Source of the DNA: an uncultured Acidimicrobiales bacterium
Lineage (GTDB): Bacteria > Actinomycetota > Acidimicrobiia > Acidimicrobiales > SHLQ01
Direction of reading: 5' to 3'
DNA length: 33,556 nt
Assembly (NCBI GenBank): GCA_938040365.1
Contig: CALHXU010000108.1
Location: 1 to 33,556 of the forward strand
Under the pieces are notes generated by a model. It saw nothing but the letters and a program-made list of their open reading frames with translations. It was not told the DNA's origin and did not search any database. The position numbers and the translations under genes were made by a program. Each line of letters begins with the position of its first letter. The stretch's first letter is position 1. Positions 2,908-30,458 of the stretch are shown in pieces.

Positions 2908-3065
2908 TGAATTACCACACCTTCGTAGGGCCCAAATGCCTTCTCAGAGTATGCAACCCACAGCGGTCCTCGTCACTTTGGGGACGCCTACCGAACGTTG
3001 TTCGTCGCCAATTCAGCCCACACGAATAGAAGAACGAGCGAGGCCTCGTTAGTATTTGGAGAGAC

Positions 3066-3157
3066 AACCGGGGAGCTCGGGCAATTGCCGGGCTGAGAGG
3101 GTGACGACAGTGTCATCGACCCGCACAACCTGAACTGGGTAATGCCAGCGGAGGAAG
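3066..3157 (+). promoter_or_regulatory. TPP (thiamine pyrophosphate) riboswitch
   Basis: The region holds the conserved parts of the THI element in order: CCGGGGAGC (3068-3076), a variable P3 arm, GGCTGAGAGG (3091-3100), then ACCTGAACTGGGTAATGCCA (3128-3147) and GCGGAGGAA. It stands directly before the thiB-like gene. The Shine-Dalgarno sequence GGAGGAA (3150-3156) is the 3' edge of the element, 7 nt before ATG 3164. This fits thiamine pyrophosphate binding hiding the ribosome site, i.e. control of translation. The mode is inferred. Confidence 0.96.
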
Positions 3158-3163
3158 ATACCA

Positions 3164-4288
3164 ATGACGAAGAACCGACGATTCGTTCGTGCGCTTGCAG
3201 CGATGCTGATGATGGCGATGATCGCCGCTGCGTGCGGAAGCTCGAGCGACACGAGCGCTGCAGCCGCTGATTCCGAGTGTTTCACCGATCCCGGTCTCGA
3301 AGCGGTCGAGCTCGCCAGTGACCCAGCGAGCCTCGACGGCACGACGATCACGCTCGCAACCCACGACTCATTCTTCTTATCTGAGGGAACGCTCGAAGCG
3401 TTTACCGCCGAAACCGGCATTACCGTCGAGCAAGTGGCCGTTGGCGATGCAGGCCAGCTGGTCAGCCAGTCGGTTCTCACCGCAGGCACACCAACCGCCG
3501 ACGTGCTGTTTGGAATCGATAACAGCTTCCTCTGCCGAGGCCTCGAAGCCGATTTGTTCAGCCCATACGTCTCGTCTGCGCTGTCGACCGTTGCCGATGA
3601 TCTCCAAGTCGATCCGTTCAACCGAGTCACACCGATCGACTTCAGCGACGTGTGCGTCAACTACTGGAACGATGCGCTGCCCGGTGATGAACCAGCATCG
3701 CTCGAAGACCTCATCGACCCGGTGAACGCCGGCCAGTTCGTCACCGAGAACCCCGAGACATCGTCGCCTGGCTTTGCCTTCCTGCTTGCCACCATCGCCC
3801 GCTTTGGCGAGGACGGTTGGGAAGAGTACTGGGAGTCGCTCGTCGAAAATGACGTGTCGATCACCGCAGGGTGGAGCGAGGCGTACGAAGTCGAGTTCAC
3901 CGCAGGTGGCGGTGAACGATCGATTGTGACCTCCTACGCATCGAGCCCGCCAGCCGAGTTCCTCTTCGCGAGTCAGCCCGTCGATGCCCCACCCACCAGC
4001 GTCTTGTTCGACAGCTGCTTCCGCCAGATCGAGTTCGCTGGAATCTTGGCAGGCACCGAACACCCCGAGGCGTCTGCTGCGCTGATCGACTTCATGCTCA
4101 GCCCGACCTACCAAGAGGACATTCCGCTCAACATGTTCGTCTACCCAGCGAACAGCGAAGCTGAGCTGCCAGAAGCGTTCGTCGACTTTGGACCACTTGC
4201 TGACGAACCGTTGATCCTCGACCCGGCCGAGATCGAAGCGAACCGCGACGACTGGACCGAGCGGTGGAACGCCATCGTCCTGGGCTAG
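3164..4288 (+). CDS. thiB: Thiamine ABC transporter substrate-binding lipoprotein (ThiB/TbpA-like)
   Basis: Extracytoplasmic solute-binding protein, 374 aa, with a basic N-terminus, a hydrophobic core and a lipobox IAAAC (Cys24), so it is membrane-anchored outside the cell. The mature part follows the thiamine-binding/iron(III)-type SBP pattern: TITLATHDSFFLSEGTLEAF, ADVLFGIDNSFLCR, DPFNRVTPIDFSDVCVNYW, PETSSPGFAFLLATIARFG, ITAGWSEAYEVEFTAGGGERSIVTSYASSPPAE. The ATG follows GGAGGAA with 7-nt spacing. The TPP riboswitch directly upstream makes thiamine or a thiamine-related molecule the most likely ligand. The last 25 nt overlap the start of thiP, indicating co-translation. Confidence 0.93.
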   Translation: MTKNRRFVRALAAMLMMAMIAAACGSSSDTSAAAADSECFTDPGLEAVELASDPASLDGTTITLATHDSFFLSEGTLEAFTAETGITVEQVAVGDAGQLVSQSVLTAGTPTADVLFGIDNSFLCRGLEADLFSPYVSSALSTVADDLQVDPFNRVTPIDFSDVCVNYWNDALPGDEPASLEDLIDPVNAGQFVTENPETSSPGFAFLLATIARFGEDGWEEYWESLVENDVSITAGWSEAYEVEFTAGGGERSIVTSYASSPPAEFLFASQPVDAPPTSVLFDSCFRQIEFAGILAGTEHPEASAALIDFMLSPTYQEDIPLNMFVYPANSEAELPEAFVDFGPLADEPLILDPAEIEANRDDWTERWNAIVLG

Positions 4289-16860: not shown

Positions 16861-19041
16861 ATGCAGCTTCCATTTCCCCTCCTCAAGAATGTTGTCTTGG
16901 TCGGTGGTGGGCACGCCCACGCGCTCGTACTTCGCGCATGGGGAATGGACCCGATCGCTGGCGCTCGGGTAACGGTAATCAACCCGCACCCGACCGCTCC
17001 CTACACCGGCATGCTCCCGGGCTATGTCGCGGGCCATTACACGCGAGACGAACTCGATATCGACATCGTGAAGCTCGCCCGCTTCGCCGATGCCCGATTC
17101 GTGCTTGGCACCGCGACCGCAATCGACCCTGAAGCAAAGACCGTCACCGTTCCGGGGCGACCTCCAATCCCCTACGACGTGTGCTCGATCGACATCGGTA
17201 TCACCTCGGAGATGCCGCAGGTCCCCGGTTTTGCCGAACACGCGGTTCCGGCCAAACCGCTCGATCAGTTCGCCAACACGTGGACCAAATACGTCGAAGC
17301 CACAAAGACCCAACCGCGGTCGTTCTCGCCGAATATCGCCGTGATAGGTGGTGGCATCGGCGGCAGCGAACTCGCAATGGCGATGCATCATCGGTTGTCG
17401 ATCCTCGGCCGAACACCGACCGTTACCGTGATCGACGGCGGAACAATCCTTCGCGAGGTCGGAGCCGCGGCCCAATCCGAACTCACCCAGATGCTGCACA
17501 GCAAGGGCATCGCTTGCAAAGAACACATGATCGCGACCGAGGTGACGAGCGAGGGAGTAGTCCTCGCCGATGGCTCGCTGGTCGACGCAGACTTTGTCGT
17601 CGGCGTCGCAGGCGCACGGCCCTACGACTGGGTCGAGTCGATCGGCATTGAGACCCACGATGGGTTCATCACCGTCGACGAGACGCTCCGCTCGAAAACC
17701 CACGGAGCGATCTTCGCCGTTGGCGATTGCGCCCACATGGGTTTTGACCCCCGCCCCAAAGCGGGAGTCTTCGCCGTCCGGCAAGCCCCGGTACTCACCA
17801 AGAACATCGCTGCGGCACTCAAACAAACGAAACTCGGAAAGTTCAACCCGCAAGTCGATTACCTCAAGCTCATCTCGCTCGGGAAAAAGTCGGCCGGTGC
17901 AGACAAATTCAAACGCTTTGTGAGCGGTCCTGCTTTCTGGCGGCTGAAGGACAAGATCGACCGAGACTTCATGGACAAGCTGAACGACTTGCCCGAGATG
18001 GCGATCGAGTCGCCGCCGAAGCAATCGGTCCGTGGACTGAAGAACCACCTCGAAGACGACCCTCCGTTGTGTGGTGGGTGCGGAGCAAAGGTCGGACTCG
18101 ACGTACTTGCTGGCCCGCTCGGCGAGCTGCCAGCTTCGACGCGAACCGATATCACCAAGCTGCCAGGTGACGATGCGGCAGTGGTGCACATCGGCTCGAC
18201 GAATCAGGTCATCACGACCGATCAGGTGCGGGCGTTTATTACCGACCCGTTCAGGATGGCAAAGATCGCCACGCTTCACGCGATGGGCGACATCTGGGCA
18301 ATGGGCGCTTCGCCCCAAGCCGTGCTCGTGACCGTGACCCTCCCCCAGCTTGGGCAGGGCCTCCAAGAGGAATGGCTGAGCGAGGTCATGGCTGGAACTT
18401 CCCAAGCACTCGAAGGCACCGGCGCGGAAGTCGTTGGCGGCCACACTTCGATGGGCGCCGAACTCTCGCTCGGCTACACCGTGACCGGCCTGGTCGACAC
18501 GCCTATCACGCTCGCCGGAGCCCGCTCGGGTGACCAACTCGTGCTCACCCGGCCAATTGGTTCGGGCGTTTTGTTCGCAGCCGAGATGCAGCGAAGTGCC
18601 CGAGGTCAAGACATTACCGACCTCCTCGCAATTCTTGAACAACCCGGCGGACCCGATGCAGCCTTACTCGCTGAGGCTGGCGCGACCGCAATGACCGACG
18701 TGACCGGATTCGGCCTCGCAGGCCATCTCACCGGCATGCTTCGCGCCTCGTCGACCGAGGAAGAACCGCTCGCCGCCCATCTCGACCTCGATGCCATCCC
18801 ACTCTTCTCTGGCGCTGCACTCGCATCACGAAATGGCATTCGATCGCACATCTACAAAAGCAACGCTGCCGCAGTACCGGTCACTTCGGCCGGCCGAGAC
18901 CTCCGCTATCCGCTCATCTTCGACCCACAAACCGCCGGCGGGTTCCTCGCCGCTGTCCCAGAAGAGAACATCGATCGCCTCGAGGGCCAGTTCGCCGTCA
19001 TTGGAACGGTCGTCTCGGGAAAGACCGAGATCCACCTGTAG
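16861..19041 (+). CDS. selD: NADH-dehydrogenase-like / selenide, water dikinase (SelD) fusion
   Basis: Two-domain protein of 726 aa. Residues 1-360 are an FAD/NAD-binding pyridine-nucleotide-disulfide oxidoreductase-like domain (VVLVGGGHAHALVL, AVIGGGIGGSELAMAMHHRL, GAIFAVGDCAHMGFDPRPKAG), resembling NDH-2-type dehydrogenases. Residues about 395-726 are SelD, which makes selenophosphate from selenide and ATP: PLCGGCGAKVG with Cys404, Cys407 and Lys410 (Cys407/Lys410 match Cys17/Lys20 of E. coli SelD), LPGDDAAVV, MGDIWAMGASPQAVLV, VVGGHTSMGAELSLGYTVTG, TDVTGFGLAGHL and DPQTAGGFLAAV. Such NDH-SelD fusions are known in some bacteria and algae; the oxidoreductase may deliver reduced selenium. No strong Shine-Dalgarno sequence precedes ATG 16861. 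It supplies the selenium donor for the selenoproteins at 27193-30094. Confidence 0.96.
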   Translation: MQLPFPLLKNVVLVGGGHAHALVLRAWGMDPIAGARVTVINPHPTAPYTGMLPGYVAGHYTRDELDIDIVKLARFADARFVLGTATAIDPEAKTVTVPGRPPIPYDVCSIDIGITSEMPQVPGFAEHAVPAKPLDQFANTWTKYVEATKTQPRSFSPNIAVIGGGIGGSELAMAMHHRLSILGRTPTVTVIDGGTILREVGAAAQSELTQMLHSKGIACKEHMIATEVTSEGVVLADGSLVDADFVVGVAGARPYDWVESIGIETHDGFITVDETLRSKTHGAIFAVGDCAHMGFDPRPKAGVFAVRQAPVLTKNIAAALKQTKLGKFNPQVDYLKLISLGKKSAGADKFKRFVSGPAFWRLKDKIDRDFMDKLNDLPEMAIESPPKQSVRGLKNHLEDDPPLCGGCGAKVGLDVLAGPLGELPASTRTDITKLPGDDAAVVHIGSTNQVITTDQVRAFITDPFRMAKIATLHAMGDIWAMGASPQAVLVTVTLPQLGQGLQEEWLSEVMAGTSQALEGTGAEVVGGHTSMGAELSLGYTVTGLVDTPITLAGARSGDQLVLTRPIGSGVLFAAEMQRSARGQDITDLLAILEQPGGPDAALLAEAGATAMTDVTGFGLAGHLTGMLRASSTEEEPLAAHLDLDAIPLFSGAALASRNGIRSHIYKSNAAAVPVTSAGRDLRYPLIFDPQTAGGFLAAVPEENIDRLEGQFAVIGTVVSGKTEIHL

Positions 19042-26727: not shown

Positions 26728-26750
26728 CACCAACGAAGTAGTCTTTGGCG

Positions 26751-27176
26751 GTGACCCGCCCTCGATTTCACCTCGCCGTTCCGGTGACCGACCTCGTCGA
26801 GACCCGAGCGTTCTACGGAGAAACCCTTGGCTTTTCCGAAGGACGTTCAGCCAGCCACTGGGTCGACTTCGACATGTTTGGCCATCAACTCGTGATCCAT
26901 ATGGTCGCCAGCAAAGAAACTGACCAAGCGGCCCAGACCAATCCGGTAGATGGCGACGATGTACCCGTTCCGCACTTCGGCGCCCTGCTCGAGGTCGATC
27001 AGTGGCAGAAGTTGCGCGACCGTTTGATCGCTGCTGGCGTGAGCTTCGTCATCGAACCCCACATTCGTTTCGCAGGCCAGCCCGGCGAACAGCACACGAT
27101 GTTCTTCATGGACCCGAGCGGCAACGCGCTCGAGTTCAAAGCATTCGCTAACGATGACCAGGTGTTTGCGACCTAA
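26751..27176 (+). CDS. VOC (glyoxalase/bleomycin-resistance fold) family protein
   Basis: Vicinal-oxygen-chelate fold protein of 141 aa. It begins RPRFHLAVPVTDLVETRAFYGETLGF, which has the first metal-ligand His and the characteristic FY..xLGF turn, includes WVDFDMFGHQLVIHM, and ends with HTMFFMDPSGNALEFKAF, holding the last Glu ligand. This is typical of VOC dioxygenases or glyoxalase-like proteins. Reaction and substrate are unknown. The start is GTG 26751; TTG 26745 is a less likely alternative. It ends 16 bp before the convergent glutathione peroxidase gene. Confidence 0.88.
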   Translation: MTRPRFHLAVPVTDLVETRAFYGETLGFSEGRSASHWVDFDMFGHQLVIHMVASKETDQAAQTNPVDGDDVPVPHFGALLEVDQWQKLRDRLIAAGVSFVIEPHIRFAGQPGEQHTMFFMDPSGNALEFKAFANDDQVFAT

Positions 27177-27192: not shown

Positions 27193-27678
27193 CTAGCTGG
27201 CTAACTCCGGGAAGAAGTCTGCGAGATCAGCGCGGATGTCCTCGGGAGTCGTCCCGGTGTCCCAACGGGCGACCGTTTCACCTTGCGGGTTCACGAGGAA
27301 CTTCTCGAAGTTCCACTTCACGTCGGCCGAATCGCCATCTCCGGGCTGCGCCGACTTCATCATCGAGTAGAGCGGCGCTTCGTTCTCGCCGTTCACGTCG
27401 AGCTTTGCGAACATTGGAAAGTTCACGTCGTACTTGCCCGTAGCAAACTCGAGGATCTCTTCGTTCGTGCCCGGCTCTTGGTCACCAAATTGGTTACACG
27501 GAAAGCCGAGAACACTCAGGCCGTCAACTTCGTTGTGGAGCGCACGCAGACCTGCGTACTGAGGGGTAGCCCCTCACTTACTCGCAACGTTGACGGCGAG
27601 CACATGCTCACCTTCGAATTGGGAGAAGTCGACCGATTCGCCGGTGATCGACTCCATTGATAGCTCGTGAAAGTTCAT
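27193..27678 (-). CDS. gpx: Glutathione peroxidase, selenocysteine-containing (in-frame TGA at 27574-27576)
   Basis: Reduces hydrogen peroxide and organic peroxides with thiols. The frame holds a single TGA, and reading it as selenocysteine gives an intact 161-aa GPx: LAVNVASK-U35-GATPQYAGL, LGFPCNQFGDQEPGTNEEI, DVNFPMFAKLDVNG, VKWNFEKFLVNPQG. The catalytic tetrad is complete: Sec35, Gln63, Trp122, Asn123. Sec stands exactly where GPx proteins have Sec or Cys. A candidate SECIS hairpin follows. ATG 27678 has AGGAG just upstream. It lies 38 bp downstream of the UGSC gene on the same strand, so cotranscription is likely. In an actinobacterium the electron donor is probably thioredoxin or mycothiol rather than glutathione. 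Ordinary gene calling would give two fragments. Confidence 0.95.
27542..27576 (-). promoter_or_regulatory. Candidate bacterial SECIS element of gpx
   Basis: Starting at the UGA, the mRNA folds 18 nt (27559 down to 27542) into a stem with apical GCAGGUCUGC, a GGU in the loop 21 nt after the UGA. As recalled, the same ten bases form the tip of the E. coli fdhF SECIS. A second hairpin, UGAGGGG-CUA-CCCCUCA, covers the UGA itself and may compete. Confidence 0.85.
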
Positions 27679-27716
27679 ATTCACTCCTGTCCTAGCTACA
27701 GAAGCTAGTGGATTGG

Positions 27717-29453
27717 TCAGTCGACCTGGCAAACGAGGTCGTTCGAGATTGCAAAGTCGATCGCCTTTGTCGTCCACCATCCGTGCGGGCCATCGTTGCT
27801 CAGCGCGTAGGCGTTGGTCCGGTTCGGGTCGCCAGCCACGGAGATGAGGAGACGTTCGGGCCGGGTCACGACCGGCACCATCCGGTTTGGGTCATCGGAT
27901 TCGCCGTAGACGGTCGGCAGCAATCCTTCGGCAACCAATTCGGCGAGCGAGCGCCGCCCGGCGGTCAGGTTGCTCCACTCACCGATCATTGCCTCGAACG
28001 TGCTCGCCGGAATCCGCGCATACTCGAAGAGCAGTCGCTGGACATCGAGCTTCGACATCCCGGCATTCGCGAACGTTCGAGCCAACACCGGCGACAGGAC
28101 GAGCAGCGGTGAGAATTGGTCGTGGCCGAGCCCATAGACGTGGGTCAGGTCCCACGCCGCGGTTCGAGCAATGCCGTTGCCGAGATACGGAGCGATCTCC
28201 TCGGGCGTCGAACCAAAGACGCTCCCGATAATCGTTCCGCTATTCATCCGCGCCATCGACACTGCATCGGCGCCAGCTGGTGCGCCGAGGTCATCTGCGA
28301 GCGACGGCCACCCAATATCGACGAGCGCGGCGTGGTCTTCGGCGAGTACGACTCGCGCCGAGTTACCGAACGTTGCTTTGTCGAGCGCATCGCCGGTGAA
28401 CCCAAAGACATTGCGGAGATAGAGGCGCAGCCACCGACCGACGCTCGTGTTTGCGTGAGCGCCTTCGCGCAACGCACCGGGCCCGTGATTGAAGCCAAGG
28501 TCGCTGTTCGTTGGCCCACTCACCACGATGATGGCATCAGCGCCGGTCGTGTTGCCCGAGTGCTCCGAACCGTAGGCAGGATCGAGCAGCACCTCGGCAA
28601 TCGCGAGCAGGATCGGCAGATGCTCGGGGACGCATCCGGCCATGACCGCGTTGACCGCTATCGACCACACGGTCACATCACGGCCCGACGACGATGCAAC
28701 ACCGAGCACCTTCCACGGATCGTGGCCGGTAATGGCGAGGAATGCTTCGACGCGATCTTTCGTCGGCGGGATGATGGCGTTGCCATCGGTCCATCCTTTG
28801 TCTCTGAACGCTTCGTTGACCTCATCAACCGACCCCGTGGCCACCACCTCGAGCGCGGTCGGTTCGACGCTGACGTCCGCCTCGGTCGAAGCATCACCGT
28901 CGACTGCGGTGAGGCCCGCAACGACCTGGTCGACTGTCGCCGCCAAGAAATTCGAAATCATCTCTTCGGCGCTCTGGGCGTCGACATGGCCAAGAGTTTG
29001 GGCGAGCGCGAGGTTGTCGTAGCCATAGCCTCGACCGGTGGCGAGCGCTTGTCCGGCAAACCCCTCACACACGATCGACACCGAGGGAATGCCGACCGAC
29101 TCGGCAGCCATTGCAGCCCGCATCACGGCGGGCGTACAACTACCTCAACAACCCATCCCCGAGACGACCGCATCGACGCCACGGCTCCGAAGATCATCGG
29201 GCAGACGACCCACCCGGGCCTTCTCATCTTTGCCGTGCAAGTTGCCGAACTCTTCGAAGCTGACGATCTCGATGTCGTCGAACCGTTCTTCGAGCGCAAC
29301 CTTCAGGACCGGGAAGAGTTCGTCCCCACGAAAGAGATAGTCCCAAAGGAACGCAACCTTTTTACTTGCAAGTGTGTCGAGGCGCGGCGCCGTCCGCTGC
29401 TGCTGAATGCCGAGCGGCGACGACGGCCAGACCACTTCATACGCGTCTCCCAT
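27717..29453 (-). CDS. UGSC-motif selenoprotein (in-frame TGA at 29145-29147)
   Basis: Reading the TGA as selenocysteine gives one protein of 578 aa. The N-terminal domain has LASKKVAFLWDYLFRGDELFPVL, then VDAVVSGMGC-U103-GSC106-TPAVMRAAMAAESVGIPSV: the UGSC redox motif reported in marine bacterial selenoprotein surveys. The long C-terminal part holds IIPPTKDRVEAFLAITG, SIAVNAVMAGCVPEHLPILLAIAEVLL, GNTTGADAIIVVSGPTNSD and ANTSVGRWLRLYLRNVFG, a region I recognise as going with this family but whose reaction is unknown. Start ATG 29453 is used; GTG 29474 adds 7 residues. The next gene on the strand is the selenoprotein GPx; the UPWC selenoprotein gene is divergent by 23 bp. A thiol/selenol redox role is inferred. 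Confidence 0.9.
29116..29147 (-). promoter_or_regulatory. Candidate bacterial SECIS element of the UGSC gene
   Basis: Downstream of the UGA the mRNA can form GCCCGC-CGUGAU-GCGGGC (29133 down to 29116), a perfect six-pair GC stem with GU in a six-base loop; the loop G is 19 nt after the UGA, close to the spacing in E. coli fdhF. Assigned from shape and distance only. Confidence 0.75.
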
Positions 29454-29476
29454 GCACGACACGGTAACGTGCACTC
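29454..29476. promoter_or_regulatory. Very short divergent gap between two selenoprotein genes
   Basis: Only 23 bp separate the UGSC start (29453) and the UPWC start (29477). The gap contains GCACG-ACACGGTAA-CGTGC (29454-29472), with inner CACG-GTAA-CGTG, a possible regulator site. No clear -10/-35 or Shine-Dalgarno sequence is visible, so promoters must overlap coding DNA or the transcripts are leaderless. Confidence 0.4.
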
Positions 29477-30094
29477 ATGAACATTCAGAAGTGGGTAGAC
29501 CCTATTTGACCATGGTGTTGGGTGACGGCTCGTTGGGTCGTCGACGTTGTAAAGCCAGAACGTGATTTGTCGATCACATGGCAGCCGATCAGCTTGCTGT
29601 TCAAGAACCAGCCGTCAGAAGACTCCGAGTACTACAAACCCGTCCAGTACACGCACAACCTTTTGCGCGTCTTCGAGGCGATAAACGCCGCCGAAGGCAA
29701 CGAAGCAGCCGGCAACTTCTACTGGGAGTGCGGCAAGTACATCCACCACGATGAGAATCTCTACACCGACGTTTCTGAGATCCTTGCGAGCGGCGGCTTC
29801 GACGAGTCGTACGCATCAGCTTTCGACGAAGAGTCATGGGATGCCGTCATTCGCGAAAAGATGGATATCGGTCTTGGCCTCGTCGGCCAAGACGTCGGCA
29901 CGCCGATCATCGCCTTCGAAAAAGACGACGGCGAGCACGTTGGAATCTTCGGCCCCGTCATCAGCCACGCACCACAAGGCGAAGAAGGACTCGCCCTCTG
30001 GGATGCCATGGTGACGATGTCGACAATGGACGGCTTCTGGGAGCTCAAGCGCACCCGCACCGTCGGCCCCAACTTCGGCGACCGGCCGCAATAA
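29477..30094 (+). CDS. Rv2466c-type DsbA-family selenoprotein with UPWC active site (in-frame TGA at 29507-29509)
   Basis: Thioredoxin-fold oxidoreductase of 205 aa when the TGA is read as selenocysteine. The N-terminus is MNIQKWVDPI-U11-PWC14-WVTARWVVDVV; in the mycobacterial mycothiol-dependent nitroreductase Rv2466c the matching part is FDPLCPWCWITSRWILEV, so Sec replaces the nucleophilic Cys of CPWC. The rest agrees through to the C-terminus: GLGLVGQDVGTPIIAF, IFGPVISHAPQGEEGLALWDAMVT and FWELKRTRTVGPNFG. The start is fixed: a stop lies in frame at 29465 and ATG 29477 is the only start before the TGA. A gene caller would begin at GTG 29522 and lose the active site. It is divergent from the UGSC gene. 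Confidence 0.93.
29507..29543 (+). promoter_or_regulatory. Candidate bacterial SECIS element of the UPWC gene
   Basis: After the UGA, bases 29524-29542 form a seven-pair stem GACGGCU/GGGUCGUC-type (two G-U pairs) with a five-base loop CGUUG; the loop GU is 23-24 nt downstream of the UGA, within the usual bacterial SECIS range. Weaker stem than in the other two genes. Confidence 0.65.
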
Positions 30095-30458
30095 CACGTC
30101 GGGACTTCCGCCCGACATCGACAACACGTCGGGGCTCCCGCCCGACATCCGCGGTTATCGACATGCTCGCTACGCCAGCTGCGCTCGCCTCGAGCGGTTT
30201 ATGAAAACGGTGTTGTCACGCCAGAGCCTTTTGCCGCAGGCAAAAGGCGGTAAGTGAGGAGGCGCCCCAGGCGCTGACGAACGACGGTCACTACGCGCAG
30301 CTGCGCTCGCCTCAAGCGTTTTGCCGCAGGCAAAAGGCGGTAAGTGAGGAGACGCCCTAGGCGCCGACGAACGACCGACATCCACGATCTACTGTCGTGC
30401 CAGGCCTACCGTGGTGATAGCGCAACCATGGCGGGTGCGCTCATCTGAAGGACGGGAC
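30095..30458. repeat. Intergenic repeat region: 30-bp tandem hairpins and a 90-bp tandem repeat
   Basis: No convincing gene in this 364-bp gap. Part 1: hairpins GTCGGG-ACTTCCG-CCCGAC (30098-30116) and GTCGGG-GCTCCCG-CCCGAC (30128-30146), units 30 bp apart. Part 2: a 57-bp block at 30229-30285 and again at 30319-30375 with only three base differences seen, period 90 bp, each beginning with the perfect hairpin TTTTGCC-GCA-GGCAAAA and containing GGCGGTAAGTGAGGAG. CAGCTGCGCTCGCCTC also occurs twice (about 30176 and 30297). The shape fits REP/BIME-type elements. Confidence 0.85.

Follow-up and report, generated by a model that had tools for sequence, protein, structure and literature searches.

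Do three adjacent bacterial genes, each interrupted by a single in-frame TGA, encode selenocysteine (Sec) proteins, and do those proteins belong to one pathway? The question is raised by contig CALHXU010000108.1 of an uncultured Acidimicrobiales bacterium, of which a 33,556-nucleotide stretch (the window) was analyzed; the source assembly comprises 3.6 Mb in 277 contigs and is 90.7% complete. An earlier note, made from the letters of this DNA alone, had described three consecutive genes with one TGA each and no other stop. The window gene listing bears this out: a glutathione peroxidase (GPx) family gene, a long UGSC gene, and an Rv2466c-like gene lie next to one another, and they are the only ones among 23 listed genes with an internal stop, one per gene. 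The genes and their TGA codons are located as follows.

27193..27678, minus strand: putative Sec-containing glutathione peroxidase family gene, 161 amino acids (aa), stop codon TAG; PF00255
27717..29474, minus strand: putative long UGSC selenoprotein gene, 585 aa from GTG 29474, natural stop codon TGA; PF24696
29477..30094, plus strand: putative Sec-containing Rv2466c-like gene (DsbA fold), 205 aa, head to head with the UGSC gene; PF22234
27574..27576, minus strand: in-frame TGA of the GPx gene, predicted Sec codon 35 (NVASK-U-G), at the peroxidatic position
29145..29147, minus strand: in-frame TGA of the UGSC gene, predicted Sec codon 110 counted from GTG (GC-U-GSC)
29507..29509, plus strand: in-frame TGA of the Rv2466c-like gene, predicted Sec codon 11 (DPI-U-PWC), at the first Cys of CPWC

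Judged from their sequences, all three look like genuine selenoprotein genes. Very probably, they are three true selenoprotein genes that stand together in one small Acidimicrobiales lineage, with each TGA read through by means of SelB, tRNA-Sec and a hairpin, and they do not form a conserved joint pathway. Family membership was scored against Pfam with TGA translated as a residue and the gathering score as threshold. The GPx product reaches 134.7 bits against PF00255 (GSHPx; gathering 27), the UGSC product 84.7 bits against PF24696 (gathering 25), with the UGSC motif present, and the Rv2466c-like product 128.4 bits against PF22234 (gathering 27). Under the NCBI equivalog NF041046, the UGSC product stays below the curated cut-off (46.3 versus 125 bits). 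As the earlier note had proposed, each TGA falls at the redox Cys/Sec position of its family (codons 35, 110 and 11): in alignments, the GPx Sec takes the place of the Cys in the yeast HYR1 stretch NVASKCG, and the Rv2466c-like Sec that of the leading Cys of CPWC in Rv2466c-family chains of solved structure. The Rv2466c-like product also matches the solved Rv2466c structure 5xur (E=1.6e-34).

The TGA codons are conserved across relatives. Searches of 395 genomes of the class at E<=1e-8 gave 216 Rv2466c-like and 160 GPx matches. In the 30 best loci fetched for each family, the source locus included, the Rv2466c-like site carries TGA in 28 and Cys in 2, and the GPx site carries TGA in 23 and Cys in 7, so that the Cys/Sec exchange the earlier note had suggested looking for is indeed present; the place of the TGA is confirmed in fetched loci only. 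Among the 55 class genomes listed with an Rv2466c-like match of at least 200 bits, 44 have one TGA and 11 have none (these counts and the 24 GPx genomes below, with their selA pairing, were made by eye from listings). Long UGSC genes at 47% identity or more occur in 12 of the 395 class genomes, one as a partial copy, with TGA in 12/12; they occur in 14 of the 19 genomes of the family, with one TGA in each of the 14; and TGA is found in 80/80 named long-UGSC loci, including metagenome-assembled genomes labelled Binatia (60%) and Alphaproteobacteria (47-50%). These three sets overlap. No Cys form of long UGSC was seen among the loci checked, which have Sec throughout at the site; of the two patterns used for searching, one is remote from the Sec site, so that Cys forms could have turned up. 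At E<=1e-45, Rv2466c-like matches were found in 12 of 316 genomes of the phylum, 3 with TGA and 9 without, and all three with TGA, the source genome among them, belong to this order. A tree of 40 Rv2466c-like sequences (29 Sec, 11 Cys) requires four Sec/Cys changes, versus a mean of 9.8 after shuffling.

TGA does serve as a stop elsewhere in the window, and the three codons could on that ground be read as plain stops in genes broken by nonsense mutation or decay. However, dozens of genomes retain the same TGA, and the protein sequence is conserved before and after it; the exceptions carry Cys, which makes decay vanishingly improbable. Conservation of TGA across relatives likewise ruled out nonsense mutation or sequencing error, and the earlier judgement that three chance nonsense mutations are not credible is upheld by these comparisons. 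Reassignment of TGA throughout the genome, to Trp or Gly for example, has a negligible probability: the 23 listed window genes hold only 3 internal TGAs and 5 of them end in TGA, homologs carry Cys at the site, and a full Sec machinery is present. This recoding was rejected on the internal and terminal TGA counts and the Cys homologs.

Each TGA is followed by a hairpin resembling a Sec insertion sequence (SECIS); in the offsets given, the T of TGA is position 0.

27542..27559, minus strand: SECIS-like hairpin of the GPx gene, GUACGCA-GGUC-UGCGUGC, +17..+34
29116..29133, minus strand: SECIS-like hairpin of the UGSC gene, GCCCGC-CGUGAU-GCGGGC, +14..+31
29524..29542, plus strand: SECIS-like hairpin of the Rv2466c-like gene, GACGGCUC-GUU-GGGUCGUC, +17..+35

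The apical loops (GGUC, CGUGAU and GUU) all contain GU and are located between +20 and +27, close to the 19-24 nucleotides (nt) downstream at which the earlier note had placed such hairpins. For each gene, the distance between hairpin and TGA is constant among orthologs. Hairpin comparisons exclude L050, L080, L110-L115 and L128 (repeats or long stretches), and the UGSC pairing and codon statistics also exclude the distant loci L037 and L039. In the GPx hairpin, 98% of pair cells are paired in 23 TGA genes, versus 0-72% when the partner is slid by 1-3 columns; in the seven GPx Cys orthologs, only 27% of hairpin cells are paired, so that the hairpin is clearly absent there. The UGSC hairpin is paired in 100% of cells in 24 genes (slid, 33-51%), and the Rv2466c-like hairpin in 98% of cells in 29 genes (slid, 16-60%). 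Synonymous codon choice is constrained as well: identity is 1.0 at GPx codons +5..+9 and at UGSC codons +4..+7 and +9 (24 genes), and in the Rv2466c-like genes it is 0.81-1.0 at +5..+7 and 0.93/0.87 at +10/+11. Elsewhere, values range mostly from 0.2 to 0.7, and individual codons reach up to 1.0. A double synonymous change in one Rv2466c-like ortholog (L055) converts a G-C pair into U-A; the outermost G-C pair of the UGSC hairpin is A-U in 6/80 loci and lost in 5/80.

The source genome encodes the machinery to decode such codons. SelA scores 386.3 bits (cut-off 267.9) on contig C61, where selB adjoins it (266.1 bits, cut-off 242.25), and tRNA-Sec lies on contig C194 (63.6 bits, gathering 47), with the anticodon TCA assigned by ARAGORN. 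The selA, selB and selC genes that the earlier note had recommended searching for are thus all found above their cut-offs. Neither their absence nor decay at the same loci in relatives, the outcomes that the earlier note had named as refuting its reading, was seen. A selenophosphate synthetase is encoded in the window itself, 8 kb from the three selenoprotein genes.

16861..19041, plus strand: NDH-SelD fusion (selenophosphate synthetase, CxxC form); selD 258.8 bits, cut-off 125

The fusion combines the domains Pyr_redox_2, AIRS and AIRS_C, and its sequence contains CGGC. It may have replaced a Sec-SelD in the source genome. One TGA, counted irrespective of its place in the gene, is found in 23 of 30 selD matches above the cut-off. 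Across the class, selA exceeds its cut-off in 256/395 genomes. By eye, it is present in 24/24 genomes listed with a TGA GPx and in 3/7 genomes with fetched Cys GPx loci.

Several observations weigh against reading all three TGA codons as Sec, most of them concerning the Rv2466c-like gene. In that family, selA fails to separate TGA from Cys: by eye, it is found in 42/44 genomes with a TGA-bearing match of at least 200 bits and in 11/11 without TGA, the two TGA genomes that lack it being G345 (68% complete) and G292 (96%). Two Cys orthologs of the family still pair 56% of hairpin cells, and codon +8, inside the hairpin, is not conserved (0.39). For all three genes, folding of the single sequence departs only mildly from expectation (z -0.55 to -2.03).

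In the mechanism we propose, SelB, tRNA-Sec and the hairpin just downstream would together read each TGA as Sec; this insertion, and every activity suggested here, we infer from the observed gene structure, conservation, hairpins and machinery. The GPx would reduce hydroperoxides through Sec35. The Rv2466c-like protein would act as a DsbA-fold reductase whose attacking Cys is replaced by Sec, and the long UGSC protein would be a redox selenoenzyme in which the UGSC domain works with a C-terminal domain. What the three genes have in common would then be their reliance on selenium, and perhaps regulation, rather than a conserved joint pathway.

The earlier note had gone further, seeing in the cluster a dedicated selenium-based thiol/peroxide system: one pathway, perhaps linked to mycothiol, whose genes are grouped for co-regulation. 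The spacing at the locus is suggestive, as GPx and UGSC lie 38 nt apart on the same strand and 23 nt separate UGSC from the Rv2466c-like gene. The closest relative found, G411, has the grouping within a shared gene order from BKACE to SelD (BKACE, HCDH, lipoprotein-like genes, Rv2466c-like, UGSC, GPx, glyoxalase, MFS, MBL, AsnC, AlaDH, APH and the SelD fusion). In G387 and in G368, the latter of the same genus, GPx and the Rv2466c-like gene are divergent as here and separated by 9.4 kb and 13.5 kb, respectively. The G411 grouping and the proximity of these two genes in G368 and G387 leave room for a link. Among the genomes examined, however, the three-gene grouping occurs in the source genome and G411 only. 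Even in G411, two open frames stand between UGSC and GPx, one of 408 codons on the opposite strand and one of 250 codons that by eye resembles a hydrolase; in G368, UGSC is on a separate contig. Neither GPx nor an Rv2466c-like gene was seen in the flanks (up to 10 kb per side, many ended by contig ends) of 79 of the 80 named long-UGSC loci, and of 23 UGSC loci with flanks of ~1.5 kb, an Rv2466c-like gene was found in the G411 locus only. As the partners are not seen at most UGSC loci, we rejected the idea that the three genes generally form an operon. The grouping looks local, and the functional inference drawn from it is weak.

The suggested tie to mycothiol is not supported either, as far as MshC, the sole mycothiol gene tested, allows. 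The test set comprised 42 genomes: two with a Cys form and 40 with a TGA form of the Rv2466c-like gene, the latter being G411 and 39 of the 44 above. In the source genome, MshC scores 430.3 bits against a cut-off of 485.1, and none of the 42 genomes exceeds that cut-off. Matches of at least 386 bits occur in 23/42; the other 19 have only 264-299 bits, a range also reached by controls without a mycothiol pathway. Each of these 19 genomes is among those listed with a TGA form of the Rv2466c-like gene, which therefore occurs without clear MshC. With the grouping seen in only two of the genomes examined and MshC below its cut-off in every genome of the set, a joint selenium system of this kind is unlikely. 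We therefore retain the reading of three selenoproteins without a conserved common pathway.

Divergent Lrp/AsnC-type genes were observed just upstream of UGSC in 18 of the 80 long-UGSC loci (L132, L134, L135, L140, L143, L151, L157 and L164 among them; query, the window AsnC). Such a gene is a candidate UGSC regulator; it is not at that place in this window.

The long UGSC protein consists of two parts, and the second recurs beyond the fused gene.

28908..29432, minus strand: UGSC domain, residues 15-189
27720..28862, minus strand: C-terminal partner domain, residues ~205-585 (~380 residues)

The UGSC query matches 136 of the 395 class genomes, nearly always, among the matches listed, through the C-terminal ~380 residues, which reached no Pfam or NCBIfam family and for which the structure searches described below gave no solved relative. 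Eighteen partner-domain loci without a long UGSC were analyzed; they are the best-scoring ones fetched, a subset of all matches. Within ~1.5 kb on each side, a TGA-containing UGSC-like gene stands beside the partner domain in 13/18, and an in-frame CxxC stretch lies upstream in 9/18 (L033, L036, L040, L041, L043 and L045-L048, four of them also with a Sec-UGSC-like gene), so that all 18 have one or both. One CxxC stretch is weakly similar to thioredoxin (20.8 of 96.8 bits), and the UGSC-like neighbour in L033 passes the UGSC gathering score (42.9 versus 25 bits). Scanning 86 control loci (293 kb) for the UGSC-like motif gave no match; the flanks of the 80 long-UGSC loci yielded three more (L172, L173 and L208), of which one or more may have arisen by chance. 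The Cys of VMAGCxPE (residue 281) is kept in 31/32 fused proteins and seen in 13/18 separate loci.

The UGSC protein was modelled with a pLDDT of 87.4 and a pTM of 0.89. In the model, strands and helices alternate in the UGSC domain, and Sec immediately precedes a helix. As we read this model, the domain would not be thioredoxin-like, contrary to the supposition in the consulted part of PMC2398784. When the complete UGSC model, rather than its C-terminal domain by itself, was compared by Foldseek with PDB and viral models, nothing reached E<0.001, and the 50 PDB matches listed include no thioredoxin. A profile of UGSC found no match among PDB sequences up to E=10. A relation of UGSC to glycine reductase selenoprotein B may be considered as no more than a lead; the Pfam family of that selenoprotein is absent from the results for 32 UGSC members at E<=5. 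Fusion here, adjacent genes elsewhere, and a domain otherwise fused to a CxxC stretch lead us to lean, with some reserve, towards a joint proposal: UGSC and the ~380-residue domain would form a conserved selenoenzyme unit, in which the partner might adopt a new fold, and the Sec form of the Rv2466c-like protein would have arisen within Acidimicrobiia and spread or persisted there.

Details of the surrounding DNA complete the description of the locus. The UGSC gene probably starts at ATG 29453 rather than at GTG 29474. The likely ATGs of the head-to-head UGSC and Rv2466c-like genes (29453-29477) are separated by 23 nt, with equal spacing in G411; with so little room, either the promoters overlap the genes or the mRNAs are nearly leaderless. 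Downstream of GPx lies a convergent gene, likewise convergent in G368 and G411.

26745..27176, plus strand: glyoxalase-superfamily gene, convergent with GPx; PF00903, 43.2 bits

The region 3' of the Rv2466c-like gene (30094-30360) contains short repeats, by eye two units of two copies each. A TPP riboswitch at 3059-3173 (57.6 bits, gathering 54.3) lies directly 5' of an open frame at 3164-4288; it is the only hit of an Rfam scan of the window at gathering scores.

These genes matter in several ways. TGA-interrupted genes are liable to annotation as fragments, and with selA in so many class genomes, the selenoproteins of the class may therefore be under-recorded. Two of the families, GPx and Rv2466c-like, occur in both Sec and Cys forms and thus offer natural comparisons of what Sec contributes. 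For the UGSC family, the recurrence of Sec-UGSC together with the same unnamed domain is a concrete starting point for working out its function.

How do the three proteins compare with known systems? GPx and UGSC are known selenoprotein families. Reviews list GPx, UGSC and DsbA-like selenoproteins (PMC13188914, PMC9312934), and GPx is listed in PMC2398784 and PMC13188914, all cited here for the parts consulted. The GPx differs in nothing essential from bacterial Sec GPx: it has the same fold family, the NVASKUG active-site stretch and a peroxidatic Sec, and it falls below the NCBIfam equivalog cut-offs (146.9 of 270 and 118.3 of 207.3). The UGSC protein shares the UGSC motif of its family (PF24696, NF041046), with Sec at U, in a chain of 585 residues. 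A UGSC fusion to a domain called 'Unknown_1' was reported in 2008 (PMC2398784, section 9), a domain that may be the present one or another; the pairing of Sec-UGSC with the ~380-residue domain was not found described in the portions of the literature searched. The Rv2466c-like protein is homologous over its full length to the Rv2466c/mycothiol-dependent nitroreductase family (PF22234), with UPWC at the place of CPWC, Sec here replacing the first Cys. In the same portions of the literature, no description of a Sec form of this family was found, and 16 members scanned reached no NCBIfam cut-off; such proteins may overlap the 'DsbA' selenoproteins of the consulted part of PMC2398784.

According to the earlier note, this clustering was not known to have been described. 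Selenoprotein gene clusters as such are already on record, namely GrdA-GrdB, SAO and Tso (PMC13188914, section 9; clusters also in PMC2398784, section 9); a description of this particular cluster was not found in the parts of these sources consulted, and to that extent the claim stands. No Tso model appears among the NCBIfam matches of the three proteins at E<=0.001. The NDH-SelD fusion has the same domains and CxxC motif as the one covered in section 9 of PMC2398784 and is notable only for its 8 kb distance from the cluster. The closest parallel in arrangement is offered by the Tso and SAO operons, in which several different selenoprotein genes are likewise adjacent, although their products (TsoA, TsoB and TsoC; SaoC, SaoL, SaoX and others) belong, by the names given in the consulted part of PMC13188914, to other families.

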